Shown: positions 11,746 to 64,000 of the stretch, piece by piece
Numbering within the stretch: position 1 is the stretch's first letter
How the letters are laid out: every line of letters starts with the position of its first letter
Source of the DNA: a virus
Length of the DNA: 64,000 nucleotides
Strand: one strand, 5' to 3'
Virus record (IMG/VR): IMGVR_UViG_3300028837_004134
Location: 1-64,000 of that record
Made by a program: the position numbers and the translations under genes
Notes under the pieces: generated by a model
Seen by the model: the letters and a program-made list of their open reading frames with translations, nothing else
Told to the model about the DNA's origin: nothing
The model's database searches: none

Positions 11746-12137
11746 GCGGGCTGGAGATGTTACGGCGGTTTCTTGATAGGGAGAAAAACATGGTCTTCTC
11801 AGCGTTCAGAATGACTTGGCGGTGTGGTACGTGAGAACCGCAATGATCTGTGCCCATTCCTCAACCGGGGACCCTCGGGTGTCCGCAGCCTCATGGACGG
11901 GCTATGACAAGGAGGTTCTTTTGCTGATCCGCACAACACGGCGAGCAAAACGGTTGAGGCGGCGACAACCCAAGGAAATAGGAAGGGTTGGTGCACTGAC
12001 TGGAGGATTTCTAGAGGTGTTTTATGCGGTTAGAAACAAGCAACTCCGCATTTTATGAGGATTCATCTAATCATTGTTGGGCGGCCTAGTGTAGGGTCGT
12101 ACTCCGTTTGTACTAAGCATTCCCGGAGGGCAATGGG
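11746..12137 (+). other. Gene-free stretch upstream of NACHT cargo operon
   Basis: About 390 nt with no convincing gene. An 80-codon frame at 11816-12058 has atypical composition and no recognisable ribosome-binding site. The stretch marks a drop in GC content towards the cargo operon and probably contains its promoter; CCCGGAGGG at about 12122 serves the first cargo gene. Confidence 0.4.
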
Positions 12138-12926
12138 ATGACAGATAAAGATGCGGCTCAAGGACAAGGTCTCATTCAATTCTTGTTGGGTCGGGTCTTA
12201 CCCAGAATTGATGTCTTCTCAACATCGGAACAACCGCCAACCGATATGTCAAAAAGTCCTGCTATGGCATCAATGTTCGTAGAGGATCCGTCCTCGACAC
12301 TAGGCGATTTCTTGTCGACATTCCGCGGCAAACTTATGGAAGGAAGATATTGGACCGTGTTCTATGACCCCAGATTGCCTTTCGTCTTGAAGTTATCGAA
12401 AAGGCCACGTTCAAGAAAATCAATGGGTAGAAGGGCCACGAAGGATTTCACTCTCATATCCAGGTATCTAAGTAATCACGTCCCATGGCAATGTGTGTTC
12501 GAAGCAGATCTCTCCAAAACCGAAAAAGCCTACTTACTAGTTCAGGACTTGATAGTACAAGAGTACTCTCTTGGTGCTATTGGGACTCCTGCGCTGCATT
12601 GCAGCAATCCAATGATAGACCGAATACTGTCTAGCGCCAGATTGAAGGAGAACGTACTGGATTTCATTGATTGTGTGGTAAGAATGAACCGAGAGGTGCT
12701 GGCAGTTCCAGACCTTTGGGGTGCAACTAACCTGATAATCCACAGAAGTTCAATAACGTTAGTTGATACCAGTGTGTTATACTCGCCGGCAGAGGATGCA
12801 TCCGAAGGTCGTGAAGGGTATTTCATGATTTGTCGCTTTATCAATGAGTTACTGTGGCTCTTGGGGCAACCGGAATGCATCGCTTTCAGCAAGGCACCCA
12901 GAAACATCTTTTCGCTGGAGTATTAG
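12138..12926 (+). CDS. Kinase-like fold protein, cargo gene 1
   Basis: A 262-residue protein of low GC. I do not recognise a named family. The order PFVLKLS (candidate lysine strand), LLVQDLIVQ (hinge-like), then PDLWGATNLII and ITLVDTS (catalytic-loop-like Asp..Asn and metal-binding Asp) resembles a diverged protein-kinase or aminoglycoside-phosphotransferase fold. GGAGG lies before the ATG. Only 12 nt separate it from the NACHT gene, so it is likely the first gene of a three-gene operon. It could modify, or be regulated by, the NACHT protein. The fold assignment is tentative. Confidence 0.6.
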   Translation: MTDKDAAQGQGLIQFLLGRVLPRIDVFSTSEQPPTDMSKSPAMASMFVEDPSSTLGDFLSTFRGKLMEGRYWTVFYDPRLPFVLKLSKRPRSRKSMGRRATKDFTLISRYLSNHVPWQCVFEADLSKTEKAYLLVQDLIVQEYSLGAIGTPALHCSNPMIDRILSSARLKENVLDFIDCVVRMNREVLAVPDLWGATNLIIHRSSITLVDTSVLYSPAEDASEGREGYFMICRFINELLWLLGQPECIAFSKAPRNIFSLEY

Positions 12927-12938
12927 ACGGTAACAGTC

Positions 12939-15900
12939 ATGGCTACGATAACTTGGCTCCACATATCAGACCTGCACATAGATTCGGAGAATTCAGCAGA
13001 TTGGCATCTAGAGAAGAAGGCCTTGTTGAGCGATATAAGAGACCATCAGACAAAAGAAGGGGCCTCTCTACCAAATAGGGCAGGCATTGTCTTAAGGCCT
13101 GACTTCGTTTGCATAACGGGAGACCTGGCTTGGTCTGGGAGAGAGCAGGAGTATGAACAAGCAGTCCAGTTTGTTGATGAACTACAGGAGATCATCCGTG
13201 TACCTAAAGACAGAGTCTTCATAGTACCAGGCAATCACGACGTCAATCGTGGAGTGGTTGAGGATGATTTCTTATATCAAGCTGCGTTTGACAAGCTGTC
13301 CAATCCCAATCAGTCTTCGGAGGACTTGTACTTAGAACTTAAAAGAGCTTGGCCTCTGCGAGCCTTTTTTGCTGCCAAGCTCCAGAACTTCGCTTCCTTT
13401 CTTCGATTGTTAGGGAAAAGCCCTGCGGCGAATCTAGCCTTCCTTGAGAGAGTCGAAGTAGGGGAAATTCCTATTGAGATCTTGGGAATAAACTCAAGCT
13501 GGATGAGCTGCAGAGATAACGAAGACTCAGAGCGGCGGCTGTTGATAGGATTGCCACAGGTTGACGAGTTGCTGGAAAAAATAGCGCCCGATGTCAAGGT
13601 TCGTATCGCGATGTTCCATCACCCGTCTACTGCGTTGCATCATAGGGACGTACAAACAGCCTATGACTTGCTCACAAAGAGATGCCCAATTGTCCTCCAT
13701 GGTCATCTTCATGAGCAACGCATTAGATACTCAAAGGAGCCCGAGAGGGAACATCTGCTGGTTTCCGCCGGTGCGACCTACTCGGATCGTAGTAGATGGG
13801 CAAAGAATGCCTACAATTATGGCGTCTTAGATAGTGATGAAGGAACCATTACAGTCTATCTTAGAAAGGCAACGCGAGGAGCAGAAATTCTCTATATCCG
13901 AGATGTAGAGACATATCCCCAAGCTTGTGATAGAGGCTCTTATACCTGGGAACTCGATCGATTGTCACCTTTTCTTGCAGAGAGGAAAGAGAGAACTGGA
14001 ACCACAAGGGTTGACGTTGATACCTACCTACAGCAGCTACTAGAGAAGACATCCTGCATAGACATTCGCGGCTTGGGAATAGGAGTTGGGAAAGCTCATT
14101 CATTTCCTATTCATGACCTGTATGTGGAACTAAAGGCAAGAACTTCCGACGTATTAGTGTCAGCTGAAAGGGAAGACAGCGATGCATTCTCTGAGACGAT
14201 CATCCCTCTAGATGATGTCCTCCAGCAAAGTCATAGGACTGTCATAATCGGGGATCCTGGTTTTGGAAAAAGCACTTTCCTCAATCGTGTTGCTAACGCT
14301 TTGTGTCTTTCCCAACTTGGAATAGACCCTGATGCTCACCACCGGTTACTTGGATTAGGTCAGGCATATTTCCCAATACTGATAAGAGTTTCTGAGTTTT
14401 CTGAATATCTTGAGGCGGTCAGCATCAATGAGGGAGCAGTAGGATCGAGTATGCCATCAACTGCTAGTTCTCCTTCTTGGTTATTTCAGTTCCTGGCTAC
14501 ATACGGCAGAGAAAGAAACTGGAGACTTGATGAGACATATTTCCAAGCCAAGCTAAGTGCTGGGGACTGCATCGTTCTGCTCGATGGTCTAGACGAGACT
14601 CCGGACCGCCGAATGCGACGGCGCGTCAGGCACATCATTGACGAGGCGGTGGCTGTCTACAAAGACTGCAAGTTCATTGTTACTACTAGGCCTGTGGCTT
14701 ACGAGAGCGATAGTCTGTTAAGCGGCTTTTCAATGGTAACCGTTGCTGGGCTAGGTGAACTGGCGATAAAAGACTTTGTGGTGAGGTGGACAAATGGACT
14801 CAAAGGTGCGGACACAGGAGAAACCAAGCAGCTGCGACAAGAGCTTCTGACAGCTATTAACAGTCGCGAGGAAATTGCAAGGATGGCTCGTAATCCTGTT
14901 ATGCTAACGGCGCTTTGCGTAGTTCATTGGAATGAAAAACGCATCCCGGAACAGCGAGTCGAACTGTATGCAACTGTGATCAATTGGTTACTTCGCTCTC
15001 GTGAACGGCGCAAGAACCGGGCCAGTGAAAGTGAAACAAAGCGCTGGCTAGCAGTGCTTGCGTTCGCTATGCAGTCTTCGTCTAGGGGGCGAGTGATTAC
15101 TATCCCTCTGAGAGAGGCTTCTGAGGCAATTGCCCATGCGTTTAGTGGTACCTCTGCACAGGAAACGATAACTAGCGCGGAGAACTTCCTTTTGCAGGAA
15201 CAGGTGGACAGTGGAATCATCTTGGCTAGAGGGAACAACGTAACTTTCTGGCACCCAACATTCATGGAGTATTTAGCAGCGGTCGCCATAGCCGGAAAAC
15301 CGGACAAGACTCAGAGTGAGATTCTATTCAAGGGTGAAAGAGCCTTTCATCCAGAGTGGCAAGAAGTGGTATTGCTCCATGCTGGGGTTCTTTCGACCCA
15401 AGGCTTCGATAAGGTCAGCCAATTCTTGAGTCGGCTGCTGAGAGTTGGTGACGAGAACGCAGATACTCGTTTTAGGGCACTGGGCCTTGTTGGAGCAATA
15501 CTGCAGGACTTGCGACCCGTTGGCTTTTCATTCGAACCACCCAAGTTACTGAACATGGTGAGAAAATGCACATATGCCCTGGATCGGCAAGATGTTCTGT
15601 TCAAGGACCGTATATCGGCAGGTCTGGCGATCGGATACATTGGAGATGAGAGATTGAAAAGAGACGCTATTGAGAGAAGCTTCATAAGAATACCGCCTTG
15701 CGGACTCAAGAGAGGCGATGACCACGGGGAACCGCGCGAACATCCTTCCAACTTCGTAAAGCTAAGTGAGTATTGGATCGCGCGTTATCCGGTTACAAAT
15801 CGCGAATTCAGGGAGTTTGTTGATGACGGAGGATATGAAGATCCTCAATGGTGGGGAGGAAGCAGATCTACGTATTGGAGATGGCGACTGAATGGGAAAG

Positions 15901-16496
15901 TGTCTTTGCCCAAACACTGGGGAGATCGACTTTGGAATGCTCCGAACCTGCCGGTAGTCGGTGTGTCTTGGTATGAAGCTGTCGCATACACTGTGTGGTA
16001 CACGGCTAGGTGCAGGTCGGTCACAATCTACAGACTACCTACAGAAGCAGAATGGGAGCGCGTTGCCAGAGGAGCTCATGAGGGGGGACGAGTTTTCCCC
16101 TGGGGAGATGTCCCCCCCGATCCACACACGAATCTTGTAGCCAACTATGGTGATATGGGCATTGCGAAAACAACGCCAGTTGGTGTTTTCCCAGCTACAT
16201 ATCCAAATGAAAGTAATGAGGAGAAGATCTATGATTTGGCAGGGAACGTATTCGATTGGTGCTTTGACTGGTTTCGCGAGGGATATGAACCAGGATTTCA
16301 TGTTAATCCGACAGGCCCCAAAAGGGGAAAGCAACGTGTAGTCAAAGGCGGCTCTTGGTATCGATCCGTAAGACACCTTAGGTGCGGCTACCGAGGACAT
16401 GCCTACCCTGGCGAACGAGCCGATACCATTGGGTTTCGCCTTGTCAAGGTATTTCTGGCTAATGGAGGAGCTGTCAGCGATGTTTCTGAAGAATGA
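12939..16496 (+). CDS. Metallophosphoesterase-NACHT-FGE fusion (NLR-like protein)
   Basis: An 1185-residue three-part protein. The N-terminus is a calcineurin-like phosphoesterase with all metal motifs: SDLH (10-13), GD (61-62), GNHD (98-101), a histidine pair near 225 and GHLH near 256. A NACHT NTPase follows with GDPGFGKST near 440 and IVLLDGLDET near 545. A helical region reaches about 910, then a formylglycine-generating-enzyme-like (SUMF1/FGE) domain with YWIARYPVTNREF, LPTEAEWE, FPWGD, DLAGNVFDW and GGSW. In known bacterial NLR-like systems the N-terminal domain is the effector and the C-terminal domain senses the invader. An enzymatic FGE domain as sensor is unusual. It is flanked by a kinase-like gene and an overlapping glycosyltransferase gene. 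Confidence 0.88.
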   Translation: MATITWLHISDLHIDSENSADWHLEKKALLSDIRDHQTKEGASLPNRAGIVLRPDFVCITGDLAWSGREQEYEQAVQFVDELQEIIRVPKDRVFIVPGNHDVNRGVVEDDFLYQAAFDKLSNPNQSSEDLYLELKRAWPLRAFFAAKLQNFASFLRLLGKSPAANLAFLERVEVGEIPIEILGINSSWMSCRDNEDSERRLLIGLPQVDELLEKIAPDVKVRIAMFHHPSTALHHRDVQTAYDLLTKRCPIVLHGHLHEQRIRYSKEPEREHLLVSAGATYSDRSRWAKNAYNYGVLDSDEGTITVYLRKATRGAEILYIRDVETYPQACDRGSYTWELDRLSPFLAERKERTGTTRVDVDTYLQQLLEKTSCIDIRGLGIGVGKAHSFPIHDLYVELKARTSDVLVSAEREDSDAFSETIIPLDDVLQQSHRTVIIGDPGFGKSTFLNRVANALCLSQLGIDPDAHHRLLGLGQAYFPILIRVSEFSEYLEAVSINEGAVGSSMPSTASSPSWLFQFLATYGRERNWRLDETYFQAKLSAGDCIVLLDGLDETPDRRMRRRVRHIIDEAVAVYKDCKFIVTTRPVAYESDSLLSGFSMVTVAGLGELAIKDFVVRWTNGLKGADTGETKQLRQELLTAINSREEIARMARNPVMLTALCVVHWNEKRIPEQRVELYATVINWLLRSRERRKNRASESETKRWLAVLAFAMQSSSRGRVITIPLREASEAIAHAFSGTSAQETITSAENFLLQEQVDSGIILARGNNVTFWHPTFMEYLAAVAIAGKPDKTQSEILFKGERAFHPEWQEVVLLHAGVLSTQGFDKVSQFLSRLLRVGDENADTRFRALGLVGAILQDLRPVGFSFEPPKLLNMVRKCTYALDRQDVLFKDRISAGLAIGYIGDERLKRDAIERSFIRIPPCGLKRGDDHGEPREHPSNFVKLSEYWIARYPVTNREFREFVDDGGYEDPQWWGGSRSTYWRWRLNGKVSLPKHWGDRLWNAPNLPVVGVSWYEAVAYTVWYTARCRSVTIYRLPTEAEWERVARGAHEGGRVFPWGDVPPDPHTNLVANYGDMGIAKTTPVGVFPATYPNESNEEKIYDLAGNVFDWCFDWFREGYEPGFHVNPTGPKRGKQRVVKGGSWYRSVRHLRCGYRGHAYPGERADTIGFRLVKVFLANGGAVSDVSEE

Positions 16497-17292
16497 GTGT
16501 TGCGTTGTGAAAGAAGAGGAAAGCCAAGATAGGATTGTAAGCAAAGTGGCTGTCGTCGTTGCAACTCACAACCGTCCTTGGATGCTCGAAGGGGCGCTTA
16601 TCAACATTCTGTCGCAATCTTTCTGCAATCTCTCGATACTAATCGTCGACAATGGTAATCTACCAGAGACAGAGACAATCGCTCGAACCTACATGCGTTT
16701 GGATCCGCGGATAACGTACATAAAGAATGTGATGCGAAAGGGAGCTGCGGCAACAAGAAATCACGGCTTATTCTCTCTGAGCAGAGAGATAAAGCATGTT
16801 CTGTTTCTTGATGATGATGACCGTTTTTCAGAGCAAGACAGCTTAAAAAGCCTTGTGGAATCGCATTTGGCAGATTCTAGGAGGTTGATGACCTATGGAA
16901 TACAGCGAGATGTGAACACCGATGGCTCTTTGTATCAGATATGGCCCTGTCGAAAAGAGTGTCTTACCGATATGATAATCGATGATAATAAGGTTCAATT
17001 TCCTGCGCACACAGTGCTGTGGAATGCAGTATTTGCAAGGTGTTTGGGTGGATATTCATTTCAGTTCGAGAATGACATGGAGGATATTGCCTTTATCGTA
17101 AGAGGATTTGCCAACCTAAGATCTGACCCTGATAGTATCGCGTATGTGGATTCCCCCATCGTGAATTGGAGGCGAGGAAACATCGAAGAGGACACCCTTC
17201 ACTCTAAGGTTCGCAGAAACGAGAAATCCAGAATTCTCGTCAGGCGGAGAATCAAGAGGATCATACTGCACTACAGTGGATACAGGTCTTAG
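16480..17292 (+). CDS. Family 2 glycosyltransferase, cargo gene 3
   Basis: A GT-A fold glycosyltransferase of 270 residues: VAVVVATHNRPWMLEGAL at the N-terminus, IVDNGN, and the metal/nucleotide-sugar motif LFLDDDDRFS, then a C-terminal acceptor region with ENDMEDIAF. The ATG at 16480 is preferred over that at 16399 because GGAGG lies 11 nt before it; it overlaps the NACHT gene end by 17 nt. The tight overlap and matching low GC make it part of the same operon. Whether it modifies the NACHT protein, a phage product or a host glycan cannot be read from sequence. Confidence 0.8.
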   Translation: MFLKNECCVVKEEESQDRIVSKVAVVVATHNRPWMLEGALINILSQSFCNLSILIVDNGNLPETETIARTYMRLDPRITYIKNVMRKGAAATRNHGLFSLSREIKHVLFLDDDDRFSEQDSLKSLVESHLADSRRLMTYGIQRDVNTDGSLYQIWPCRKECLTDMIIDDNKVQFPAHTVLWNAVFARCLGGYSFQFENDMEDIAFIVRGFANLRSDPDSIAYVDSPIVNWRRGNIEEDTLHSKVRRNEKSRILVRRRIKRIILHYSGYRS

Positions 17293-17356
17293 CGGGTGTG
17301 AGTGAGCTATGCCGTTGGCCGGTCTGTCGTCAGCGGCCGTTGGAACCTACAACAGG

Positions 17357-18356
17357 TGTGATATGACGTACCTCGTGGGACAGTTCTCCAGTTATTATAA
17401 CATACTTCTGAGGGCTTCGTAAGGAGTTTTTCCGTCGAACGCACCGTGGGGACGACCAAAGTTGTAGAATCGTTCCCATTCCTCCAGTTTCTTGTTCAGA
17501 TCCACATCGTCAGTGTAGGTCAGCAGCTGATAAAACTCCTCTTTGTCGGAACGGTGAGATCGCTCGACTTTACCGTTTAGCTGCGGTGAACGGGGTTTGA
17601 TGTAAACATGGCGGATACCTCGATCCTCTACGTGCCAGTGGAACAGAGCTTGGAATTCGTGTCCTCGATCGGTTCGGACAGTATGGATGCGAAAGGGAAA
17701 CTTCTCGATCACGTAATCTATGAAATCTATGGCGTTCTTCTGAGTATGGCGCTTGTAGATCCTCAGGGCTCTCACCCGAGTAGCATCGTCGATGGCGGTG
17801 TACTGGAAACGACGGATCTTCTTGCCTTCGGTGTTCTTGAGAGTAAGAAACGTCACGTCAACCTGGATGTGATGGCCAGGAACCCGTTTTGCATAACGCC
17901 TGGTGTGGATAGCCCGACGGCCGACGTTTCTGGGCAAGCGTCTCAAGCCATGGCGGATAAGGGTTCGATATACGCTCGAACTGGAAGTCTTAACAGCGTG
18001 ATAACGCCCCAGATACCAAGTGATTCGCTCAGGCCCGAAGTGATACACCTGCCTCAGATGAAGGATCTTCTCGACCACCTCCGGGGACAGCTGTCGCGGA
18101 TGACTCTTTGCAATTGGCCTCTTCCGAGCCAATCCCGCATCACCATGTCTGGCGTAAGCTTCCTTCCACCTGTAGAACGTTGATCTGGGCACATCCCACT
18201 CCCGGCAAGCCTCAGTAACGCTGCAATGCGCCTCGGCCCACTCCAACACCAGCTTCTTCAGTCTAATTGATCGAATCGGACAGATCGACATACCAACCTC
18301 CACATTGTGGCTTACATGATAACACAATATGTCCCGCAAGGTCTGGTATATCTACA
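17357..18356 (-). mobile_element. IS481-family insertion sequence
   Basis: About 1.0 kb bounded by imperfect inverted repeats starting TGTGATATGACG on the left and ending GGTATATCTACA on the right, both with GGGACA (or its complement) about 20 nt inside. No target duplication is visible; the left flank does not continue the gene fragment found at the right flank, which suggests a deletion beside the element. Confidence 0.8.
17395..18291 (-). CDS. IS481-family DDE transposase
   Basis: A 298-residue transposase. An N-terminal HTH (CSVTEACREWDVPRSTFYRW) is followed by an rve-type integrase core: HIQVDVTFL (first Asp), TVRTDRGHEF (second Asp) and KPRSPQLNGKVERSHRSDKEEF (catalytic Glu region). 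The C-terminus YNFGRPHGAFDGKTPYEAL is typical of IS481. The ATG at 18291 has GGAGG 5 nt upstream; a longer frame to 18339 lacks one. It appears intact and may be active. Confidence 0.92.
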   Translation of the reverse strand: MSICPIRSIRLKKLVLEWAEAHCSVTEACREWDVPRSTFYRWKEAYARHGDAGLARKRPIAKSHPRQLSPEVVEKILHLRQVYHFGPERITWYLGRYHAVKTSSSSVYRTLIRHGLRRLPRNVGRRAIHTRRYAKRVPGHHIQVDVTFLTLKNTEGKKIRRFQYTAIDDATRVRALRIYKRHTQKNAIDFIDYVIEKFPFRIHTVRTDRGHEFQALFHWHVEDRGIRHVYIKPRSPQLNGKVERSHRSDKEEFYQLLTYTDDVDLNKKLEEWERFYNFGRPHGAFDGKTPYEALRSML

Positions 18357-18551
18357 ATCTTGGGCTTCGTGGAGCCGTTTGACGCCGTAGAAGCGCCGAT
18401 AGAGCCGTTGCTCGTGCTGTCACGGCCAAGTTCCTCATAGGCCGTCATGCTGACGTTGGTGGCGAATCTGAACGCCCTGGCCACCGCTCTGGTCTCGGCC
18501 ATGCGGATCAAGTGCGGTGCGATCCACTCGTTCACATTGTCGGGGCTGGCC
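18357..18551 (-). pseudogene. Fragment of annealing-protein-like gene
   Basis: The frame encoding NEWIAPHLIRMAETRAVARA and EELGRDSTSNGS duplicates the central part of the gene at 23669-24232 with a few substitutions. It stops at the IS481 right end and loses similarity at about 18551, so both ends are missing. It shows that a second copy of that gene, and perhaps of its element, once lay here. Confidence 0.85.
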
Positions 18552-18578
18552 CGTCTGAGCGACTTTCTCGGTGAAGGA

Positions 18579-18719
18579 GTATCAGAAGTACCACCCTGTG
18601 AAAGATCGTGGCTTACAGGGCGGTTTAGGCGTCAAACCGGCTTGGTTTGGCTTGGCAGCCAGAGGGGTGAGCCCCGGTGCAATGGGAGGGATATTGCACC
18701 TTAAAGGGGCTTCTGATAC
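18579..18719. other. Multi-hairpin 141-nt element (candidate structured RNA or MITE)
   Basis: A perfect 10-bp closing repeat, GTATCAGAAG (18579-18588) with CTTCTGATAC (18710-18719), encloses five consecutive perfect hairpins: CCCTGT/ACAGGG (18594-18620), CGGTTT/AAACCG (18621-18639), GGCT/AGCC (18649-18660), GGGG/CCCC (18664-18675) and GGTGCAAT/ATTGCACC (18676-18700). It lies between the annealing-gene fragment and the end of the secreted gene. No coding sense is visible. Confidence 0.6.
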
Positions 18720-18753
18720 AGTCTACTGTCGTGGTCGCACACCACAGCCATTA

Positions 18754-21700
18754 CTATGGACAGGTCGGCTCAGGCCCCTCGTTGAACATATAGTCCACCA
18801 GGTATACCAGGTCAGCAATATCGATCAGCCCGCCACTGGCATCCACGTCGGCCGCTTCCATAACTGGCGGTTCCGGGCCGCTATTGAACATGAAGTCCAC
18901 CAGGTAGACAAGATCAGCGATATCGATTGGCAGTGTGCCGCTACCGTCGATGTCGCCGCAGGACGAGGTGGCTGCCATTAGAGCGACTGCAACCTGGCCG
19001 CCAATGCCATTCTCAGGGAAGGCCACGATGTTGAGTAGGGACGTCTGGTAAAAGGAGACCGGAGACGGTACCCAGTTCAGTGAAACGGTGTATGTAGCTG
19101 GTACTTCCTCCCCGGGCTGCAGGTCCGGAAGTGGAACCGAATCGCTGCTATGGATTGTGACAAAGCCGGCATCGTGTATCTGACAGTAAACGCCCGTAGC
19201 CACAGCATCACCGATGTTCCTGACCGTCAGGTCAATTGTGACAAGCGAATCACGAGTTACAAGAGACCATTCTGGGGTAGCCGTGATTGAGAGTGTGGGA
19301 ACTGCTGGAATATCAATTAGTAGTCCGATCACACTATCGACCAGCATCCAGCTATCAGCTAACTGCGTCACTACAGTGTCGAAGGTGGATGTCGAAAGCG
19401 TGTTGAATTCAGCATCAAAGGGGTTCAATTGAAGTCCCAAGGCAACGAACGAACCCTGTAATAGCCGCAAGTTCGCGTTTGTGATAGCTGTGTCGGCTTG
19501 TTCGAGAGCGGCGTCGAAATCAGGTATGGTTGCTCGCCCACTATCAGCTTTCGATGTAAGGACTCCCGATGACTGCGAGAAGACGGCCATGACTAAATCC
19601 GCACTTACAATTAGGCTCTCGGCGGCAGTCCATGTTTCAAGTGAATCTCCAGATAGAGCAGCAGCGGTTACGCTGTCACACCAGTCGGAGTAGGCTGAGA
19701 TTTCTTGGGGAAGTGGCGCCTTTGAAGCCGAGCTGCTTCTGGTATTGCCGGCTGCCAACACCATTCCTGGTGTGTGCATTGGATACATCGGGGGGGCCGT
19801 GCCATGATAGACAAAGAATGCGCCGAGAGTTATTTCAGTCTGAATGGAGATAGCTGTCTCAAGTGCCTCTCCGGCTGCCATTATTGAATGACCAGACTTG
19901 TTTACTCCGACCAGATCGCCAAAAAGCTCCACCGCCTTCTTAACCCACTTAAGCTTGAAAAAACCTTCGTCCATCGCATCAGACAACTCTTGAAGCCTTT
20001 CTGCCACACCCATTCCACCAGCATCTTCTTCGTGCTGGGCTATGACAGCTGCCGACTGATCGGTCATGTCTTTGATATTAGACCACCTATCCTGGAAGTT
20101 ATCGGTGGCTTCCTCAAGAGTATTGGAGTAGTTGTAGACTGTCGACCAGCTACCGGCGTCATCAAGAGCATCCTGTGTGGAGGGAACATGTATCAGGCTG
20201 AGTGCGGCTTCATCAAACACAATCCGAACGGCTGCATTGTTTATAAGGCAATCCGAGACGTGTTCGCTTGCGAGACAGTTTATTAACCCAGCCTTGACCT
20301 GATCGAACAGCATACCCCACGTTCGACGTACATCCTCATCAGGAATGAACCTCCTGATCTCTCCAAAAATGTCGAGAATATATCCAAGGACTGTCTTCAG
20401 CACTTTCTTCAGCAGCTTGGCAATCATCCCACCTTTCTCTCCAAGCGCCAAGAAAGCTAAAGCCGGCGTTATGGCCGATATGGTGTTCTTGACTGCTGAA
20501 TCCCACATCTCCTCCGCACCCCTTACTGTCTCTGTTTCCGGTGGTGGGTCTGCTGCATCAGGAATGTAACGGTAACCGGCGTTCACCAACTTAGCTACCA
20601 TCAAAAGCCTTTGGAAAGTCTCCAGTTGCACTTCCGTCGGATAGCCGGGTCGGATTACATTATCCACAAACGAATTGGCATCCTGCATTTCATAACTGTT
20701 CACGACCGGGATAGGGATAATTGTGCCCACAAATAGGTCGATTTCAAGATTCTCCAGGCGATCTTTAATAAAGTCATACTGCGCCAACTCCACCGGCGTT
20801 CCATCAGGATTGTGGACCTGGTAAGTCACAGAAACTACTTCTGGGCTGTTATCGGCGTTGCTGCTCGTGACGGTCATAACTTCGTTGTACGTACCAGGAT
20901 TCAGATCAGTGGTGTTGATGGTAACGGTGATCTCCTGGTAGTTACTCGTACCGTAGTACAGGTCGATATCCAACCAGGGAATCTGCTCATCTATGTACCA
21001 GTCCAGCGTACCGCCGCCCGTATTCGTTATAGTCAAAGTTTGATTATCAGGTAAGACATCATTCTGAGCTGCAGCAAAGTGAAGACTGGAGGGACTTAAT
21101 TGGATGTGCGGACCAGACGAGATCGCATACTCAATGGCCAAGTATTCTGGGCTGTTGTCGGCATTGGTGCTCGTAACCGTCATGACTTCGTTGTAAGTCG
21201 CCGGCGCTAAACCCGTGGTGTTTACGGTTACAGTGATCTCAGCGTAGTTGGATGTGCCGGAAAACGGGGTTATGTCCAGCCAGTCGATTTGTTCGTCTAT
21301 GTGCCAGTCCAGCGTTCCGCCACCGGTATTGGATATCTCAAACGTCTGCGGGGTGGGTGTAGGATCATCTTGGACCGCCAAGAAGCTGAGATTAGTTGGC
21401 GTCAGTGAAATGTGCGGACCGGCAGATACAGTATATTCGACCGTCACAAATTGCGGGCTGTTATCGGCGTTGGAGCTGGTCACGGTCATCACTTCATTGT
21501 AGGTGCCTGGTGCCAAACCGGTGGTATTTATCGTAACCGTTATTTCCTGGCTGTTGCCCGGTCCTTGCCGTATATCAAGATCCAGCCACTCAATCTGCTC
21601 ATCCACGTACCAGTCAAGCGTTCCGCCGCCGGTATTTGATATCTCAAACGTCTGCGGGGTGGGTGTAGGATCATCTTGGACCGCCAAGAAGCTGAGATTA

Positions 21701-22593
21701 GTTGGCGTCAGTGAAATGTGCGGACCGGCAGATACAGTATATTCGACCGTCACAAATTGCGGGCTGTTGTCGGCGTTGGAACTGGTAACGGTCATAACTT
21801 CATTATATGTCCCCGGAGCAAGCGATGTTGTGTTGATTGTAGCCGTAATCTCCTGGCTGTTGCTCGTGCCGAAGTAAGGGGTAATATCTAACCAGGAAAT
21901 CTGCTCGTCAATGTACCAGTCCAGTGTACCGCCGCCCGTATTTGATACGGAAAATGTCTGTTCGGTTGGAGCCACACTGTTTTCTGCGCCTTGAAAGATC
22001 AAATTCTCTGTCGACAGTGCGATATGGGGAAGGTCCTGTGATTGATATGCCCAGGGAATCCAATTGACAGGTCCACTGATTCCTGCAGCAATCGTAGCTG
22101 AGTCAGTTGTACCCCAGTAGTTATACTGGGCGTTGGTTGAAGTACCAGATGAATTGACAATATTAAAATCAGTGTTGTCATATATATCACAACTGTAGTC
22201 TAAAGAACCACCAATGATAAGCGGTCTTGAAGCATTAATATTATAGAGTCCATCTCCCACATTACCGATAATGTGACAGTTTTCAAAAATAATTTCAGAA
22301 GCAATTGAACAATACACACCACAGTTTAAGTTATTGGCGATTAGACAATGTCTAAAAATCTTGGGATAGTCAGCATCCTTTGACCGAGCATATACACCAG
22401 CCTGAGCGACACCGAATAAAGTATCCACTGCCCCGGCATACTTGATATCACAGTAAAGTAAACTATCGGAAAGCGTGTAACTGTGATATTTTATCCCAAC
22501 CCAGTCACCTGGCTGGGGGACAGGTGCATTGGAAGTGAAAACTATCCGGTTATCAGGAGTCCCGTTGGCCTCAGCGATAAACCACATCGTCAA
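18754..22593 (-). CDS. Secreted BACON-repeat protein with C-terminal dockerin-like repeat (3' part of a broken gene)
   Basis: A 1279-residue frame beginning with a beta-helix-like region (FENCHIIGNVGDGLYN) after a duplicated EANGTPDN segment. Four BACON-type repeats of about 100 residues follow (SNTGGGTLDWYIDEQ, then APGTYNEVMTVTSSNADNSP), then a long helical region, a CARDB-like repeat (VTIDLTVRNIGDAVATGVYC) and a C-terminal pair of dockerin-like calcium repeats (DIDGSGTLPIDIADLVYLVD). The protein is probably exported and surface-attached. The frame starts with TTG and no signal peptide; the true start appears to be at 23150, two frameshifts away. Two BACON units are near-identical in DNA, 306 bp apart. 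Confidence 0.75.
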   Translation of the reverse strand: MTMWFIAEANGTPDNRIVFTSNAPVPQPGDWVGIKYHSYTLSDSLLYCDIKYAGAVDTLFGVAQAGVYARSKDADYPKIFRHCLIANNLNCGVYCSIASEIIFENCHIIGNVGDGLYNINASRPLIIGGSLDYSCDIYDNTDFNIVNSSGTSTNAQYNYWGTTDSATIAAGISGPVNWIPWAYQSQDLPHIALSTENLIFQGAENSVAPTEQTFSVSNTGGGTLDWYIDEQISWLDITPYFGTSNSQEITATINTTSLAPGTYNEVMTVTSSNADNSPQFVTVEYTVSAGPHISLTPTNLSFLAVQDDPTPTPQTFEISNTGGGTLDWYVDEQIEWLDLDIRQGPGNSQEITVTINTTGLAPGTYNEVMTVTSSNADNSPQFVTVEYTVSAGPHISLTPTNLSFLAVQDDPTPTPQTFEISNTGGGTLDWHIDEQIDWLDITPFSGTSNYAEITVTVNTTGLAPATYNEVMTVTSTNADNSPEYLAIEYAISSGPHIQLSPSSLHFAAAQNDVLPDNQTLTITNTGGGTLDWYIDEQIPWLDIDLYYGTSNYQEITVTINTTDLNPGTYNEVMTVTSSNADNSPEVVSVTYQVHNPDGTPVELAQYDFIKDRLENLEIDLFVGTIIPIPVVNSYEMQDANSFVDNVIRPGYPTEVQLETFQRLLMVAKLVNAGYRYIPDAADPPPETETVRGAEEMWDSAVKNTISAITPALAFLALGEKGGMIAKLLKKVLKTVLGYILDIFGEIRRFIPDEDVRRTWGMLFDQVKAGLINCLASEHVSDCLINNAAVRIVFDEAALSLIHVPSTQDALDDAGSWSTVYNYSNTLEEATDNFQDRWSNIKDMTDQSAAVIAQHEEDAGGMGVAERLQELSDAMDEGFFKLKWVKKAVELFGDLVGVNKSGHSIMAAGEALETAISIQTEITLGAFFVYHGTAPPMYPMHTPGMVLAAGNTRSSSASKAPLPQEISAYSDWCDSVTAAALSGDSLETWTAAESLIVSADLVMAVFSQSSGVLTSKADSGRATIPDFDAALEQADTAITNANLRLLQGSFVALGLQLNPFDAEFNTLSTSTFDTVVTQLADSWMLVDSVIGLLIDIPAVPTLSITATPEWSLVTRDSLVTIDLTVRNIGDAVATGVYCQIHDAGFVTIHSSDSVPLPDLQPGEEVPATYTVSLNWVPSPVSFYQTSLLNIVAFPENGIGGQVAVALMAATSSCGDIDGSGTLPIDIADLVYLVDFMFNSGPEPPVMEAADVDASGGLIDIADLVYLVDYMFNEGPEPTCP

Positions 22594-23032
22594 AGTAGTT
22601 GCTAACTAAATGGATGCCCCCACTGTCATTGGAAGAAATTGTGCAATTTTCAATTGAACTGTAAGCAGATCGACCGTAATCATAAATACCATAACCGGTG
22701 CAATTAGTAATGGAACAATCGACTAATTCCAGAGTGTCAGTACTCGCACCCATAAACACGCCTGATCCAAGAATGGAATCAATCGTGCAGCTCTTAATCT
22801 GTTTTAGCTTGTCGGCCTGACCACGGAAATATACACCAGCCTGAGCGACACCGAACAAGGTATCCACCGCCCCGGCATACTTGATATCACAGTAAAGTAA
22901 ACTATCGGAAAGCGTGTAACTGTGATATTTTATCCCAACCCAGTCACCTGGCTGGGGGACAGGTGCATTGGAAGTGAAAACTATCCGGTTATCAGGAGTC
23001 CCGTTGGCCTCAGACAATGTAAGGACTGCCAT
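22571..23032 (-). pseudogene. Beta-helix segment of the broken BACON/dockerin gene
   Basis: This frame carries right-handed beta-helix-type repeats (CTIDSILGSGVFMGAS, CSITNCTGYGIYDYG, CTISSNDSGGIHLV). Its first part, from EANGTPDN to AQAGVY, repeats the first part of the 18754-22593 frame: the DNA at 22829-23014 and 22398-22575 is nearly identical. At each copy the upstream sequence enters one base out of frame at the same point, TGAGGCCAACGGG. It is therefore a middle piece of one longer gene and not an independent gene. Confidence 0.65.
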
Positions 23033-23150
23033 CTATGCTTAGTGTAGTATTCGTAGTTATGGCTCCACCAATATAGGTTTGAGCCGTAGAAACATCACTC
23101 ACAAACAATATTATTGTTACAACGGATAAAATACAGATAAATACCTTCAT
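23010..23150 (-). pseudogene. Signal-peptide start of the broken BACON/dockerin gene
   Basis: The frame from ATG at 23150 encodes a clear signal peptide (MKVFICILSVVTIILFVSD, cleavage probably after STA-Q) and then GGAITTNTTLSIDGSPYIV, stopping at a TGA that overlaps the first out-of-frame junction. This is the expected N-terminus of the secreted protein whose remainder lies at 18754-23014. It is too short to be recognised as a gene by length alone. Confidence 0.7.
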
Positions 23151-23203
23151 AGCTTCCCCCTGTATCCTAAATGTTTAGATTGATTTCTCAGAAACATCAA
23201 AAA

Positions 23204-23230
23204 AGCCCGTGTTTTGAAAACCAACGGGCT
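23204..23230 (-). terminator. Rho-independent terminator
   Basis: AGCCCGT pairs with ACGGGCT; on the minus strand the stem is followed by TTTTTTG. It lies 78 nt after the stop of the minus-strand frame at 23308-23634 and before the signal-peptide start at 23150. Confidence 0.75.
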
Positions 23231-23307
23231 GCAGTGCTCTATTGATATATGATTTTGAATTTGACTAACTTCTGGATCGTCGAGTAAGCCCATATAAATA
23301 ACTCCAA

Positions 23308-23634
23308 TTACGGTTTATTCTCAGGAGTGATGGACCAAGATGCATATCTTCCCAATAAAAGAAATATACTCAAACTTTCATGCTTGTCAATCCCGAAAGC
23401 CCTTATTGACGAGGGTTTCCGGACCTTAACTAACTCCTCGTCCTTGACTCCGTCATATGATAAATAGTCACATTCTATGTCTTTTGCAGAAAAAACATCC
23501 CTTTGAGTGCGAAATTTCAAATGTATAACAATATTGTAAACGCCGGAGTAAAAGTGTCCCAAGGGGCGGTCGAAAAGTGTGCCACCCAGGCTTCGCCCGA
23601 ACAGTAAGGACAAGAGGCCAGCACTACTCGGCAC
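23308..23634 (-). CDS. Hypothetical protein or gene remnant at the E3 border
   Basis: A 108-residue frame. The C-terminal two thirds (from GHFYSGVYNIVIHLKF onward) has low GC and plausible protein composition, and a terminator follows its stop. The N-terminal third lies across the border between low-GC and high-GC DNA and may be fused foreign sequence, so this could be the 3' end of a gene cut by insertion of E3. No family was recognised. Confidence 0.35.
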   Translation of the reverse strand: MPSSAGLLSLLFGRSLGGTLFDRPLGHFYSGVYNIVIHLKFRTQRDVFSAKDIECDYLSYDGVKDEELVKVRKPSSIRAFGIDKHESLSIFLLLGRYASWSITPENKP

Positions 23635-23668
23635 CGGCCCCTTGTTTCATGATGATCTGCGCAGCAAC

Positions 23669-24232
23669 CTACCCCACCTTGCCTTTCTTCGGACAAAGCT
23701 TCAACTGGTCGATGGCGTGTGACCCACCCGCAATGGGAATCTTGCCGGTCTTCGCCTTGTGATCGAACAGTTTCTGTATCTCCAGCTCCAGCTCGATCGG
23801 CACTTCCCGCTGGTCACACAGCGTGCGAATGTACTGCTCCTGAGTCATCTTGGGCTTCTTGGAGCCGTTTGACACCGCAGAAGCACCTACAGAGCCGTTG
23901 CCTGTGCTGTCACGACCAAGCTCTTCATAGGCCGTCATGCTGACGTTGGTGGCGAACCTGAACGCTCTGGCCACGGCCCTGGTCTCAGCCATGCGGATCA
24001 AGTGCGGCGCGATCCACTCGTTCACGTTGTCAGGGCTGGCGTCGCCCAGACCGTGGAAAGTGCCCTTGCTGGTTGTGACTTCGGCCGAGACAACTGCCAG
24101 CGGCTGGTCTTTTGTCGGCATGTGCAACAGGCAGGTTTTGACCGCGTTCAGCCCCTGTCGGTGGGCCTCGTCGAGCAGACCAGCGAACAGGATGTACTCC
24201 TTGCCGTTGGTAGGTGGTGATCGTCGCCGCAC
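23669..24232 (-). CDS. Phage-type annealing-protein-like protein, frameshifted at N-terminus
   Basis: A 187-residue frame resembling a widespread phage/element family with GKEYILFAGLLDEAHRQGL, GLGDASPDNVN, and IAPHLIRMAETRAVARAFR, thought to be related to single-strand annealing or recombination proteins. The N-terminus here (MRRRSPPT) looks wrong: an overlapping frame from the ATG at 24239 reads MMGAATITTY and would join NGKEYILF if one C in the run at 24209-24210 were removed. This is a natural frameshift or a sequencing error. The C-terminus has an extra basic region. The function is inferred from family resemblance only. Confidence 0.65.
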   Translation of the reverse strand: MRRRSPPTNGKEYILFAGLLDEAHRQGLNAVKTCLLHMPTKDQPLAVVSAEVTTSKGTFHGLGDASPDNVNEWIAPHLIRMAETRAVARAFRFATNVSMTAYEELGRDSTGNGSVGASAVSNGSKKPKMTQEQYIRTLCDQREVPIELELEIQKLFDHKAKTGKIPIAGGSHAIDQLKLCPKKGKVG

Positions 24233-24235
24233 CCA

Positions 24236-24550
24236 TCACGCGGCCCCCGTGGCTTTCAGCTCCGGAGAAACCGGATGCGCGTCTCCGACCCTTTCGACCT
24301 TGAACGCCTCTTCACCGAACTCACGGGAGAGGAACCCGGTGAAAATCCGGGCGATGGCGCGTCCGACATCAGTCGCCGCGTCCACCACGCAGGAACGCTT
24401 TTTCGAGTCCAGGCAGAAGGACGCATCAAGTCGTACCAAAGCTCGACCGTGCAGGCTCTCGGCGGCGAGCACGGCAAGGAGCAGAGACTCCTCGACGTCC
24501 CGGAATGGGACCTTGGTGTTGAAGTTGTATCTGTAGAGTTCGCGGTTCAT
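24236..24550 (-). CDS. Hypothetical E3 protein
   Basis: A 104-residue protein (MNRELYRYNFNTKVPFRDVEESLLLAVLAAESLHG...), unrecognised. The pattern LYRYNF...DVEESLLLA with a later CVVDAATDVGRAIARIF is typical of small phage-region proteins found beside annealing-protein genes. The ATG at 24550 is chosen because GGAGG lies 7 nt before it; the ATG at 24568 lacks a site. It ends just before the annealing-like gene, so the two are likely co-transcribed. The shared motif lies about 100 nt upstream. Confidence 0.7.
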   Translation of the reverse strand: MNRELYRYNFNTKVPFRDVEESLLLAVLAAESLHGRALVRLDASFCLDSKKRSCVVDAATDVGRAIARIFTGFLSREFGEEAFKVERVGDAHPVSPELKATGAA

Positions 24551-59614: not shown

Positions 59615-62600
59615 TCAGATGAGGAAGGTAATGTCGTAGGTGGCAGTGCGACGGACCGAGTGCGAAGAACGGTTGACCGTAATCTCGAACCCCACTTCCC
59701 TGATCGTCTCCAGGTCATTCGAGAACCGTTGGGCAAACTGCTGGACGGAGTTCATGTGGAATGAAAGGCCGAAGTCCTTGGATAGACGCTTGATGGCCAC
59801 GAAGAGGTCACGGGCAAGAGCGCCCTTGATGGTAGTCTCGTCCTGGAAGTCAATCTGGTAACGTTCGAGAAACGCCGCCTTGTTCGTCTTGGCGACATTG
59901 ACGGTGGTGCACTCTAAATCAGCTTCAAGCGCATGGCGGTAGGCCTTGAAGAGCGCCGCCAGGCAGGTGGCAATGGGGTTGGATTCCCGCGCGGTCTCCA
60001 TACTGACGCTGTTGAGCGAGGCGATCCGGTCCAGGAACTGCGGGTGGAGTTCATCAAGGGCCTGGTCGATCACTTCCGGCAGTTCGCCGGCCAGCATCAT
60101 CAGGTACATCAGGCTGAGGTAGTCGTTGCAACGGCGCTTGCCGTGGTTGCCCAGGGTCCTATGGAGCAGGCGCATCACCTTCTCCTGCGCGCCGTCCCGC
60201 AGCATGGCCAACACCTGACAGGTGCGTTTCATCATGGCGGAGACGATGAGGTCGCGGTGCTCCCGAATGGCGGCCAGTATTTTCGCTTCGAGGAAGCAAT
60301 CGCTGGCCTGCTCGTCCATTTCAAAGCGGATGATGAACGAGCGCGACAGGATTTCCGCGAGTTCCCCACCCAGCGGCTCAATGCCGGTGGTGTTCAGCAG
60401 ACACTTGGTGCGCTCGATGACAGTCTCGGTATCGGTGCCGCTCTTGCGCTTCTCCTTGGCGATGCCGGTGATGCTGGTCAGGATGAAAGTAGTTAGGTCC
60501 TCGGTCATCTGCTTGACCTCGATGTTGTCGAGGACGATGAGCGGGTTCTGGGAGCCGTCGGTGTAGTTGGCCGCGTCAGTGCTCTTCTTCTGCTGGGGCT
60601 CGCCGTAGAGCAGGGCAGAGATCAGTTTGCTGGCCGTGGTTTTACCCGAGCCGGCTGGACCTTCGAAACGTGTCATCGGTCGCGTCCCGGCGAAATCGAT
60701 CAGCAAAAAACAGGACAGCCACGAGAGGATCAGAGACCTTTCGCCCGGAGCGCAGGTCATGTTGTCCAGGATCAACCCCACCAGGAGGCGGTCGGCTTCG
60801 TCTGGATCGGCGTCCGGCAGAAAGCGGATCGGAGCCATCTTGCGTGAGCCGTCCAAAATAATGCCATCCGCATTACCGCCGTTCTTGAGAACTTCGATTT
60901 CATCCGCCGTGATTCTGACGATCTCGTGATCGGTGTTGTTTAGGTTGAAGTAGATGGTGTTCCGCGCCACGTCCGTGTGAAGCCATGAAAAGTGATCCCG
61001 CACCTGCCCGCGTTCAACGGCAAGGTTCGCCAGCACCTCGTAGAAGGTCCGACCGCCCCCGGTGGTCTGAACGAGCCCTGTATGTTTGTAGATGACCGAG
61101 GAGTAGAGCCTCTTGCGTCCGCGGTCCGAGGTGTCCATCCAAAATATGGCGTCCTCAAAAAACATGAACGGCTCGCCCTGTGGCGTGCGAAAGAAACGAG
61201 CTCCATTGGCGGCAAACCAATCGTAAGCGGCCTCGGCCACACGGGGATAGTCCGGTGATCCGGATTCCTCCTCCGTTTCAAACATGATCTGTTCTATTCG
61301 GGCCCGGCAGGAGCCGGCTGGGGCGCTTGGCGTTCGTTTCTCCCGTTTCTTCTCCTGCTTGGTCTGAGCGCGTCTTTCCTTTTGCAATACGCGAATCTGG
61401 TCGCGCAGGATGGCGAGGGAAAGATTGGATTTCCCGAAGTGCTCCTGGATGAGTTTCAGATGCCGGTTCTGTTCAAGAGGAACAAGCTGGGCCACCTCGC
61501 GCAACACCGGCCCAAGTGACCGGTTCCTTTCCTCCTCGGACACGTCGGCGGGCAGGCGTGAAATCCCGAACTCCAGTGGCATCTTCGCCTCGGCGATCAG
61601 TCCCTCGAAATCCGCCGCGGTGTGCCCGGCGGCGAAAAAATCGTTGACATCGATCTTGGCCGCGGCCAGAAGTTCTTCGGCTTCCTTGATCTCTTTTTCC
61701 GAACGTCCGTCAAGGCGCTGGGTGAGATCCCGCGGACCTAGCGCGGTATCCAGGCCAAAACGCTCTTTGAGCTCTTGACGGGCGTTTTCCCGATGCTCGT
61801 CGAGGGGAAGGACCACCAGTCTGGTTTGAATCTTGTGCCCGGCGAGAACGGACGCGGTTTTAAGCGCACCGTGCAATCCGGCCTGGGAAATCTCGTTGTC
61901 CTGGCAGATGTAGACGGTCTTGACGCTGCGCAGACGCGGCAGCAGCCGTTCCCAGTCAGCGCCGCGGATACGGACCGTGACCGGCGACACCGCTACGAAC
62001 CCGTGCTCCATGAGTGAAATGCAATCGGTGACGCCCTCGGTGATGATCAACCGCTCAGGATTTGCCAGCAGACAATCCTCGTTGAATAGATAGCCGTTGT
62101 TGATACAGGGGGCGATGTGCTTGTTCGAACTGTCGTTGTGGACCGGGAGCTTCTTGTATTTGCCATGCTCCCAGTTCCGGTCCGGAGTCCACGGCGTTTT
62201 GCGGCCGATCATGAAGACCACGCGACCGCGGCTCCAATAAGGGAAAACGATCCGTTTTTCAAAGAATGGGAAAAGGCCGTCCTGGCCGGTCGGGCGGAAC
62301 GCTCCAGTCGCGGATAGCTCCCGCAAGCTGAAGCCGTGTTTCTTATTGGTCAGTGTGGCGATGACACCTACACGGCTTTCCGTATCCCCATTGTTATCCG
62401 CATAGCCGATAAGCATGTTTTCAATGGTCTCATCCGTGATCCCGTACTGAGAATGAAGCCATTGGAACACTTCGGGTGCTTCCTTGAGCCGTTGGTGATA
62501 GAACGAAGCAAGTTCAGTCAGTGCAGCTTGGACACGCAGCTCCAGACTCCGAGCAGCTTCAGCTTCCGCCATTTGCTCCGGAGACAACCCATAGCTGGAT

Positions 62601-62947
62601 AACGAGGGAAGACCCGCCTTGGCGGCCAGGAAATCGCGGGCACCTTGGTGACTCTCCGGCATGGGACCGGATTGACCCCGCGTTACGACACCAGAATGGA
62701 TGAACTCCACCAAATGCAGCACATCGCCGCCCACGCCGCAGCCGAAACAGTACCATCCCTGCTTGTCCAGCATGACATGAAGCGACCGGTGAGACTGGCT
62801 CTTGTGGTTCGGGCAATCGCATTGGAGCAGACGGTCGGATTCATGCAGGACGCGAGCGCCGAGCAGTTCCCTGGCGATTCCGCCGATATCCACCTCGGTA
62901 ATCCGCCGGTAATAGTCCTTCACGTTGTTGGGCTGCTCCGATGCCAT
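59615..62947 (-). CDS. CHC2 zinc-finger primase-Toprim-helicase fusion (E2 copy)
   Basis: A 1110-residue homologue of 8063-11404 with CDCPNH and CFGC zinc ligands, LIITEGVTDC and VYICQDNE Toprim motifs, FEGPAGSGKTT Walker A and PLIVLDNIE. From about residue 560 to the end it is almost identical to E1, whereas about 100-230 and 440-540 are clearly diverged, indicating recombination between elements. The ATG at 62947 with GGCGGAG upstream is preferred over the GTG at 62974. Confidence 0.88.
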   Translation of the reverse strand: MASEQPNNVKDYYRRITEVDIGGIARELLGARVLHESDRLLQCDCPNHKSQSHRSLHVMLDKQGWYCFGCGVGGDVLHLVEFIHSGVVTRGQSGPMPESHQGARDFLAAKAGLPSLSSYGLSPEQMAEAEAARSLELRVQAALTELASFYHQRLKEAPEVFQWLHSQYGITDETIENMLIGYADNNGDTESRVGVIATLTNKKHGFSLRELSATGAFRPTGQDGLFPFFEKRIVFPYWSRGRVVFMIGRKTPWTPDRNWEHGKYKKLPVHNDSSNKHIAPCINNGYLFNEDCLLANPERLIITEGVTDCISLMEHGFVAVSPVTVRIRGADWERLLPRLRSVKTVYICQDNEISQAGLHGALKTASVLAGHKIQTRLVVLPLDEHRENARQELKERFGLDTALGPRDLTQRLDGRSEKEIKEAEELLAAAKIDVNDFFAAGHTAADFEGLIAEAKMPLEFGISRLPADVSEEERNRSLGPVLREVAQLVPLEQNRHLKLIQEHFGKSNLSLAILRDQIRVLQKERRAQTKQEKKREKRTPSAPAGSCRARIEQIMFETEEESGSPDYPRVAEAAYDWFAANGARFFRTPQGEPFMFFEDAIFWMDTSDRGRKRLYSSVIYKHTGLVQTTGGGRTFYEVLANLAVERGQVRDHFSWLHTDVARNTIYFNLNNTDHEIVRITADEIEVLKNGGNADGIILDGSRKMAPIRFLPDADPDEADRLLVGLILDNMTCAPGERSLILSWLSCFLLIDFAGTRPMTRFEGPAGSGKTTASKLISALLYGEPQQKKSTDAANYTDGSQNPLIVLDNIEVKQMTEDLTTFILTSITGIAKEKRKSGTDTETVIERTKCLLNTTGIEPLGGELAEILSRSFIIRFEMDEQASDCFLEAKILAAIREHRDLIVSAMMKRTCQVLAMLRDGAQEKVMRLLHRTLGNHGKRRCNDYLSLMYLMMLAGELPEVIDQALDELHPQFLDRIASLNSVSMETARESNPIATCLAALFKAYRHALEADLECTTVNVAKTNKAAFLERYQIDFQDETTIKGALARDLFVAIKRLSKDFGLSFHMNSVQQFAQRFSNDLETIREVGFEITVNRSSHSVRRTATYDITFLI

Positions 62948-62981
62948 TTCGGCTCCGCCTTCACTGATTTCCACGCTGATT

Positions 62982-62996: not shown

Positions 62997-63089
62997 GAAA
63001 CGAGTTTTGACGGGGATCGGATATTGTGTTTGATCTCGTGCTCTGAAGTGTTATCATATATTTTGGTATGGAGATTAAGGGAAGAGACT

Positions 63090-63314
63090 ATGAGTTTCTA
63101 TATCTATGAAAACTGGACTGCAGAAAACAAAGCAGTTATTCATCAGGGAAGTTGTGGTAACTGCAACCACGGACAAGGCTGTCACCCAAATCCCCTGGGT
63201 AAGAAAAATGGTCAATGGCTCGGTCCATGTAATTCCCTGGCTGATGCACGAAGAGAAGCAAGAGCCACTGGAAGGCCGGTTCGAGAACATCGTTGCGTAC
63301 GGAAAAGAGTATAG
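63090..63314 (+). CDS. Small CGNCN-motif protein
   Basis: A 74-residue protein beginning MSFYIYENWTAENKAVIHQG, then CGNCNHGQGCH, NGQWLGPCNSLADAR and TGRPVREHRCV. I recognise this as a small conserved family with a probable metal-binding CxxC..C cluster and no known function. GGGAAGAG lies before the ATG. It is divergent from the primase, in the slot held by the excisionase-type gene in E1. Confidence 0.75.
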   Translation: MSFYIYENWTAENKAVIHQGSCGNCNHGQGCHPNPLGKKNGQWLGPCNSLADARREARATGRPVREHRCVRKRV

Positions 63315-63363
63315 TGGCTCAATACCAAGACAAAGCCACGGACATTCTTTCCAGTGCCGCGAA

Positions 63364-63519
63364 CGCCCCTGGCGTGACGCCGGCATGGCCATCGAAAGCG
63401 AAACCACCCTCTCCGATCAGGAACGCGGCAAGGAATGGGAATACCGCGTCATCGCTGTCAATCCGCCACGGCGGACCGGCGAAGGCGAACCCAACAACAC
63501 CGTCATGGCGGTGCTGTAA
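63364..63519 (+). pseudogene. Fibronectin type III domain remnant
   Basis: The frame SETTLSDQERGKEWEYRVIAVN followed by GEGEPNNTVMAVL and a stop is the C-terminus of a widespread fibronectin-type domain. Upstream the coding sense is lost, and a small insertion lies before GEGEP. It is a decayed gene fragment between the small gene and the NACHT cargo. The stretch 63520-63621 has no clear gene. Confidence 0.65.
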
Positions 63520-63621
63520 TGAAACAGAAGTTGGCCGGATGGACGATCTGGGAAGACTCCGAGACTTCCTGAATCGAATAACGGGCGTCTCCATACCTAA
63601 AGGTTAGCGGAGTAACTCCAC

Positions 63622-64000
63622 ATGAGGCTGACTCGTTCTCAGTTTTACGTGTTGCTGCTTGCGATTCTGACTGTGGCTGTTGGGGCCATGACCAACGTCG
63701 CCACAGGTCAGATGCCAACTTGGCTTCAGCCTTACCTGTGGCTATCGTGGCCCATTTTGGGCGTGCTTGTTGTCCTCTTCATTATTCTTAGTGTACACCA
63801 GATCCATCAAAAGGAACCCGAGCCCCCGCACCCCTCCGAGCCAGAACCGCTAATCCGAGAGCGCAGAAACGAAAGGAGGGCGCTGCGCAACTACCTTGAG
63901 CAACTCATTGAAGAGCACAAGTATTTTACTTTTCTTAGACGAGCGAAACCCCTTGATCTTGAGAGAATCTACATCGCCTTGAGGGTTGGAGAATACGTGC
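63622..64000 (+). CDS. Membrane-anchored NACHT-type protein, N-terminal part
   Basis: The frame from ATG at 63622 is open to the window end (126 codons). It has two membrane segments (FYVLLLAILTVAVGAM, and LSWPILGVLVVLFIILSV) and then a cytoplasmic part with LRNYLEQLIEEHKYFTFL and LDLERIYIALRV. The latter is the usual lead-in to a NACHT NTPase domain in bacterial membrane-anchored NLR-like proteins. The NTPase motifs themselves lie beyond the window. GGAG precedes the start by 9 nt. It would be the E2 counterpart of the NACHT cargo in E1. Confidence 0.6.
   Translation, partial: MRLTRSQFYVLLLAILTVAVGAMTNVATGQMPTWLQPYLWLSWPILGVLVVLFIILSVHQIHQKEPEPPHPSEPEPLIRERRNERRALRNYLEQLIEEHKYFTFLRRAKPLDLERIYIALRVGEYV

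Follow-up and report, generated by a model that had tools for sequence, protein, structure and literature searches.

The record analyzed is an 83,416-bp IMG/VR contig, and the window, the whole 64,000-bp stretch of DNA considered here, corresponds to its bases 1-64000. Two related elements, E1 and E2, lie on this contig, and in each of them cargo genes follow the upstream side of a conserved primase gene. Sequence beyond position 64000 was taken from the full record, which made it possible to follow the frame at 63622 to its stop codon. The features of the two cargo regions are as follows.

8063..11431, minus strand: E1 primase (phrog_47), a conserved slot border
11495..11514, plus strand: promoter-like motif GTGCTCNNAANTGNTATNAT of E1, facing the cargo
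11518..24281, no strand: E1 region not common to E2, comprising the cargo slot and replaced core genes
11557..11745, plus strand: HTH_17 gene on the primase side of the E1 slot (Pfam, alignment and tblastn)
12138..12926, plus strand: 262-aa ORF, separated by 12 bp from the E1 NACHT gene that follows it
12939..16496, plus strand: E1 slot gene, 1185 aa, calcineurin-like phosphoesterase, NACHT and FGE
59615..62974, minus strand: E2 primase (phrog_47), a conserved slot border, 87% identical to the E1 primase
63038..63057, plus strand: promoter-like motif of E2, overlapping a sigma-70-like match at 63030-63057
63061 to contig position 66652 (window part 63061..64000), no strand: E2 slot 1, from primase to recD2
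63106..63519, plus strand: 137-aa ORF on the primase side of the E2 slot (from the ORF list)
63622..64000 in the window, continuing to contig position 66603, plus strand: E2 slot gene, 993 aa
contig 66653-69136, minus strand: E2 recD2, the far border of slot 1, beyond the window

The DNA identity between E1 and E2 is 73-89% across the core and 83-84% in the flanks (83% in the block that runs up to the slot), breaks off at 11517/63060 and returns at 24282/74275. From primase to recD2, slot 1 measures about 3.4-6.6 kb in E2 and in two related elements, L021 and L022; at 12.8 kb the E1 slot is longer, as the replacement there extends to core genes, recD2 among them. No direct or inverted repeats of at least 10 bp were found at the ends of the E2 slot. 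The E1 slot further holds a glycosyltransferase-like ORF, an IS transposase (17395-18339) and BACON-domain repeat genes (window 17395-23032 for the last two), and its stretch 18357-18550 is repeated at 23847-24040 with 90% identity. A 325-bp repeat (84% identical; window 31184-31508 and contig 82234-82558), located just past the serine integrase side of each element, probably marks the right ends of E1 and E2. The block between the elements (window 38866-49475) encodes type I restriction genes (HsdR, 38866-41868; HsdM, 47454-49475), a DarT toxin (44664-45317) with a macro-domain partner (43598-44650), and a DUF4411 and IrrE-type peptidase pair.

The first-pass annotation, made from the window alone, had suggested that the first large gene beyond the primase and its divergent small gene encodes, or appears to encode, a NACHT protein in both elements, and Pfam matches bear this out in each. 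The E2 frame at 63622 stays open to the end of the window and stops at contig position 66603; its product matches NACHT (PF05729) with 36.8 bits (Pfam cut-off 26.7) and has an FGE-sulfatase domain (150.6 bits) at its C-terminus. The extension past 64000 reveals both nucleotide-binding motifs intact, with Walker A (GEPGGGKT) at residue 167 and Walker B (LILLDALDE) near residue 372. The gene is thus laid out as two membrane segments, an interrupted NACHT domain, a helical region and the FGE domain (about contig 65962-66600). Ahead of NACHT, nothing but predicted membrane segments is recognized. The two-segment anchor initially proposed for this protein proved to be an undercount, as hydropathy, the only basis of the membrane predictions, places five segments at residues 8-26, 40-58, 214-232, 245-263 and 282-300. 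The neighboring 137-aa ORF has no Pfam or NCBIfam match.

The E1 protein scores 55.6 bits for Metallophos, 33.8 for NACHT and 162.3 for FGE in Pfam, and its Walker A and B motifs are likewise intact. Its phosphoesterase resembles the antiphage models DS-8 (NCBIfam DS8_antiphage) and PADLOC PDC-S60, over the domain only and below the full-length cut-offs. The 262-aa ORF, which has no Pfam or NCBIfam match, is probably in the same operon as the NACHT gene.

Contrary to the earlier view that the two proteins are of unrelated architecture, they share the NACHT core, the helical region and the FGE domain, and align with 27% identity over 702 aa (E = 9e-45); they diverge at the N-terminus, where E1 has a phosphoesterase and E2 a pair of membrane segments. 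Both genes are free of internal stops. A single ancestral insertion is unlikely, since the cargo proteins are 27% identical whereas the flanks are 83% identical in DNA, and since the E2 protein is nearer to a Chloroflexota homologue (343 bits) than to the E1 protein (157 bits). Judging from these comparisons, the slot was probably filled twice, by separate acquisitions. A scan of viral contigs with either protein retrieved no relatives of the NACHT proteins.

In pairwise alignments to solved FGEs, read by eye, the catalytic cysteine pair is missing from both proteins, so the domain probably binds a ligand without catalysis. Such domains could be targets of a diversity-generating retroelement, in which case the slot would carry self-mutating sensors: retroelements target STAND-FGE/CLec proteins in Thiohalocapsa and elsewhere (PMC10907252), and both FGE domains count TvpA (2y3c), a retroelement target protein, among their relatives in sequence. 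We consider this highly improbable, because the 83,416-bp record has no reverse transcriptase (RVT_1) match, the 3' ends of the genes are not repeated on the contig, and the annotation within 2.5 kb of a homologue on a Thiodictyon plasmid shows no retroelement. The link to a retroelement was rejected on the first two of these grounds.

The distance between Walker A and Walker B is 205 residues in the E2 protein, compared with 75-90 in the fifteen Chloroflexota homologues showing both motifs and 72-107 in five further homologues, including the E1 protein. Aligned to a reference homologue (L122), the extra piece covers residues 193-317 (about 125 residues; contig 64198-64572), is in frame, has a GC content similar to the remainder of the gene and carries three of the predicted membrane segments. 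It is absent from the 20 homologues checked, and the best full-length homologue (L136, from a Chloroflexota genome) has two membrane segments, NACHT and FGE and lacks the insertion; a search of plasmids gave matches only to the parts preceding the insertion. The E2 protein might represent a membrane-embedded NLR-like receptor of a new type, with a three-segment module between the Walker motifs and an inactive FGE domain as phage sensor, a proposal that we put forward tentatively and regard as doubtful. If it is true, nucleotide-driven oligomerization of the NACHT domain would act directly on membrane helices, for instance by opening a pore.

Just upstream of the primase, the motif GTGCTCNNAANTGNTATNAT faces the cargo in E1, E2, L021, L022 and the degenerate locus L018, and is found nowhere else among the 227 loci; as the pattern was built from those five loci, its absence elsewhere is the only informative part. 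In E2 it overlaps the sigma-70-like match, of which 0.6 would be expected by chance. Among viral contigs, 27 stretches match the motif, with a primase only on the already known contigs of L021 and L022.

Primase relatives with 72-90% identity are found in genomes labeled Desulfobacterota, Ozemobacter, Hydrogenedentota, Acidobacteria, Myxococcota and Anaerolinea; apart from the complete genome of Desulfosarcina alkanivorans, these are mostly MAGs, whose labels may be wrong for mobile DNA. Near-identical replication modules (L009-L017 and L093-L101) are present in genomes labeled as several different phyla. Viral contigs contribute further relatives at 55-84%, in a scan based on an alignment of nine sequences of a primase whose N-terminus is variable, and 50,697 phage records include no close relative, the identity reaching only ~25-28% over part of the protein. 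The family is one of temperate phages, since relatives encode a terminase, a portal protein and minor head proteins, and since the genes that come after the copy in Desulfosarcina look, by eye, like those of a contractile tail. Continuous ORFs with an extra ~1 kb in frame, possibly inteins, are seen in a RecD2 gene (L049:6753-10031) and a Sak4-like gene (L012:4952-6799).

Of the 44 relatives where both genes are seen, all but L021, L022 and L046 (41 relatives) have recD2 abutting the primase, at a distance of no more than 39 bp, and the two genes also abut, within about 60 bp, in ten additional whole-genome loci. With recD2 next to the primase in 51 relatives, the slot is empty in most of the family. 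In the primase tree, E2 stands beside the cargo-less L009, and L021 and L022 group with the cargo-less L010, L015 and L017. These placements imply a mosaic make-up of the modules, in keeping with recombinational exchange.

A subgroup around E1 and E2 is marked by a serine integrase that is at least 85% identical in E1, E2, L021, L022, L147 and L052, and 60% or less in other family members where it is seen. One of these close elements, L147, was found by the integrase scan. Slot 1, between primase and recD2, and slot 2, beyond recD2, contain the following.

E1, slot 1: HTH_17, 262-aa protein, phosphoesterase-NACHT-FGE
E2, slot 1: 137-aa protein, TM-NACHT-FGE
E2, slot 2: 1103-aa protein with two methyltransferase domains
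L021, slot 1: HTH_17, SIR2, DeoRC, TM, HNH, DnaJ
L021, slot 2: pentapeptide-TIR
L147, slot 1: TM, HNH and DnaJ genes as in L021, as far as the contig end
L147, slot 2: SIR2-like protein
L022, slot 1: HTH_17, HEAT protein, type II methylase (507 bits)
L022, slot 2: SbcD-like and AAA_27
L052, slot 1: empty
L052, slot 2: 464-aa protein with no defense match

Slot 1 is occupied in five of the six elements with four different contents, a sample in which E1 and E2 share one contig and L021 and L147 have cargo in common. The initial proposal of a defense cargo hotspot is thus supported for this subgroup, where SIR2 and HNH genes and a type II DNA methylase with a partner also follow the primase, but not for the wider family, in which the 51 relatives carry no cargo there. 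Homologous elements lacking defense genes at this position had been named beforehand as grounds for refuting the idea, and these relatives partly supply them. A NACHT domain was sought in 35 viral relatives and matched in none. The slot 2 gene of E2 (contig 69433-72744; L008:6017-9328) has a PADLOC mad2 match of 110 bits and an N-terminus that looks cyclase-like by eye. A degenerate relative of the slot in a Planctomycetales-labeled MAG (L018:9232-9940) combines a primase fragment, the promoter-like motif, HTH_17 and a GIY-YIG gene, and includes a short stretch resembling the 137-aa ORF of E2.

E1 is missing recD2 and neighboring replication genes, and E2 has neither the exonuclease nor the Sak4-like genes that relatives carry; having lost core replication genes, both may be decaying. 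A phage satellite would lack capsid genes of its own and depend on a helper; in this respect, E2 has a terminase and no recognized head or tail gene among the genes scanned, E1 runs off the contig, and relatives have portal, head and tail genes. The missing replication genes, together with the IS transposase within the E1 cargo, would suit decaying prophages in which the NACHT genes are chance insertions, from the host or borne by an IS, with no maintained slot. This appears quite unlikely to us, given that L021 and L022, although on incomplete contigs, retain the full core and yet have cargo at the same place. In addition, the promoter-like motif is conserved, as is HTH_17 (absent from E2, and 78-90% identical to the E1 gene in L018, L021 and L022), and both NACHT genes have remained intact.

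Another reading takes the slot as a general site for lysogeny cargo (morons), where the NACHT-FGE proteins would be regulatory or signaling STAND ATPases or superinfection-exclusion factors instead of abortive-infection receptors. STAND NTPases do include transcription regulators, the cargo of L021 includes a sensor of the DeoRC type and a protein with a DnaJ domain, and part of the cargo has no defense match (the 262-aa protein of E1, the 137-aa protein of E2 and the 464-aa protein of L052). We judge this reading unlikely in view of the defense-type domains that recur in the slots (NACHT, SIR2, HNH, TIR and type II methylase) and of the resemblance of the E1 phosphoesterase to antiphage models. 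From the same domain matches we infer that the slot cargo may protect against phages.

Taken together, the evidence fairly well supports an interpretation that places E1 and E2 in a previously undescribed temperate-phage family with recD2 and primase in its core replication operon, and with a subgroup bearing two swappable defense slots that flank recD2 and an NLR-like receptor in both elements. The cargo would probably be transcribed from the conserved promoter facing away from the primase, and exchanged, again probably, by recombination within the conserved flanks. Each receptor would consist of a NACHT NTPase and a C-terminal FGE-fold domain, with the phosphoesterase as putative effector in E1 and the membrane part in E2. 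By analogy with bNACHT proteins, the FGE domain may sense a product of the infecting phage, upon which the NACHT module would oligomerize. The effector could then stop the cell, through cleavage of nucleic acids or nucleotides in E1 and through membrane damage in E2, and arrest of the cell would protect kin cells together with their resident element. Such a subgroup would add a defense hotspot in an uncultivated temperate-phage family spanning genomes labeled as several bacterial phyla. Its primase/recD2 borders and promoter-like motif offer a handle for gathering more cargo, possibly including new defense genes, and single-gene NACHT-FGE receptors with no retroelement are simple test cases for phage sensing by FGE-fold domains.

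Several known systems resemble parts of this arrangement. The Chloroflexota homologue L136 is like the E2 protein in its two N-terminal membrane segments, NACHT and FGE (35% identity over 734 aa), but its Walker motifs are not separated by a membrane insertion, and it does not lie in this phage slot. STAND-FGE proteins have been proposed as putative antigen sensors, uncharacterized experimentally as of that publication (PMC10907252). The STAND-FGE/CLec targets of diversity-generating retroelements (PMC10907252; FGS domain, PMC7159879) share the STAND NTPase and C-terminal FGE/CLec domain, and the combination of phosphoesterase, NACHT and CLec has been described for Thiohalocapsa DGR 7, whereas the E1 and E2 genes sit in a phage cargo slot on a record with no reverse transcriptase. 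The antiphage bNACHT proteins follow a tripartite logic of N-terminal part, NACHT and C-terminal sensor (PMC12169576), with which E1 and E2 share intact Walker motifs and the order of the parts; the FGE domain would be the presumed sensor, and the N-terminal part, clear as a phosphoesterase in E1, consists in E2 of predicted membrane segments. They differ in having a SNaCT or NCH1 C-terminus in place of the FGE fold combined with a phosphoesterase or membrane N-terminus, and the E2 protein has in addition its membrane insertion inside NACHT. The hotspots of P2 phages and P4 satellites (Rousset et al. 2022, PMC9122126) are likewise variable loci between conserved genes whose defense-type sets differ from element to element; the present case, in which protection is predicted from gene content, concerns another phage family, primase/recD2 borders and two adjacent slots in a subgroup only. 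The slot of the E1/E2 subgroup agrees with the way phage-encoded antiviral hotspots have been described, as small loci of high turnover between two conserved genes (PMC9122126).
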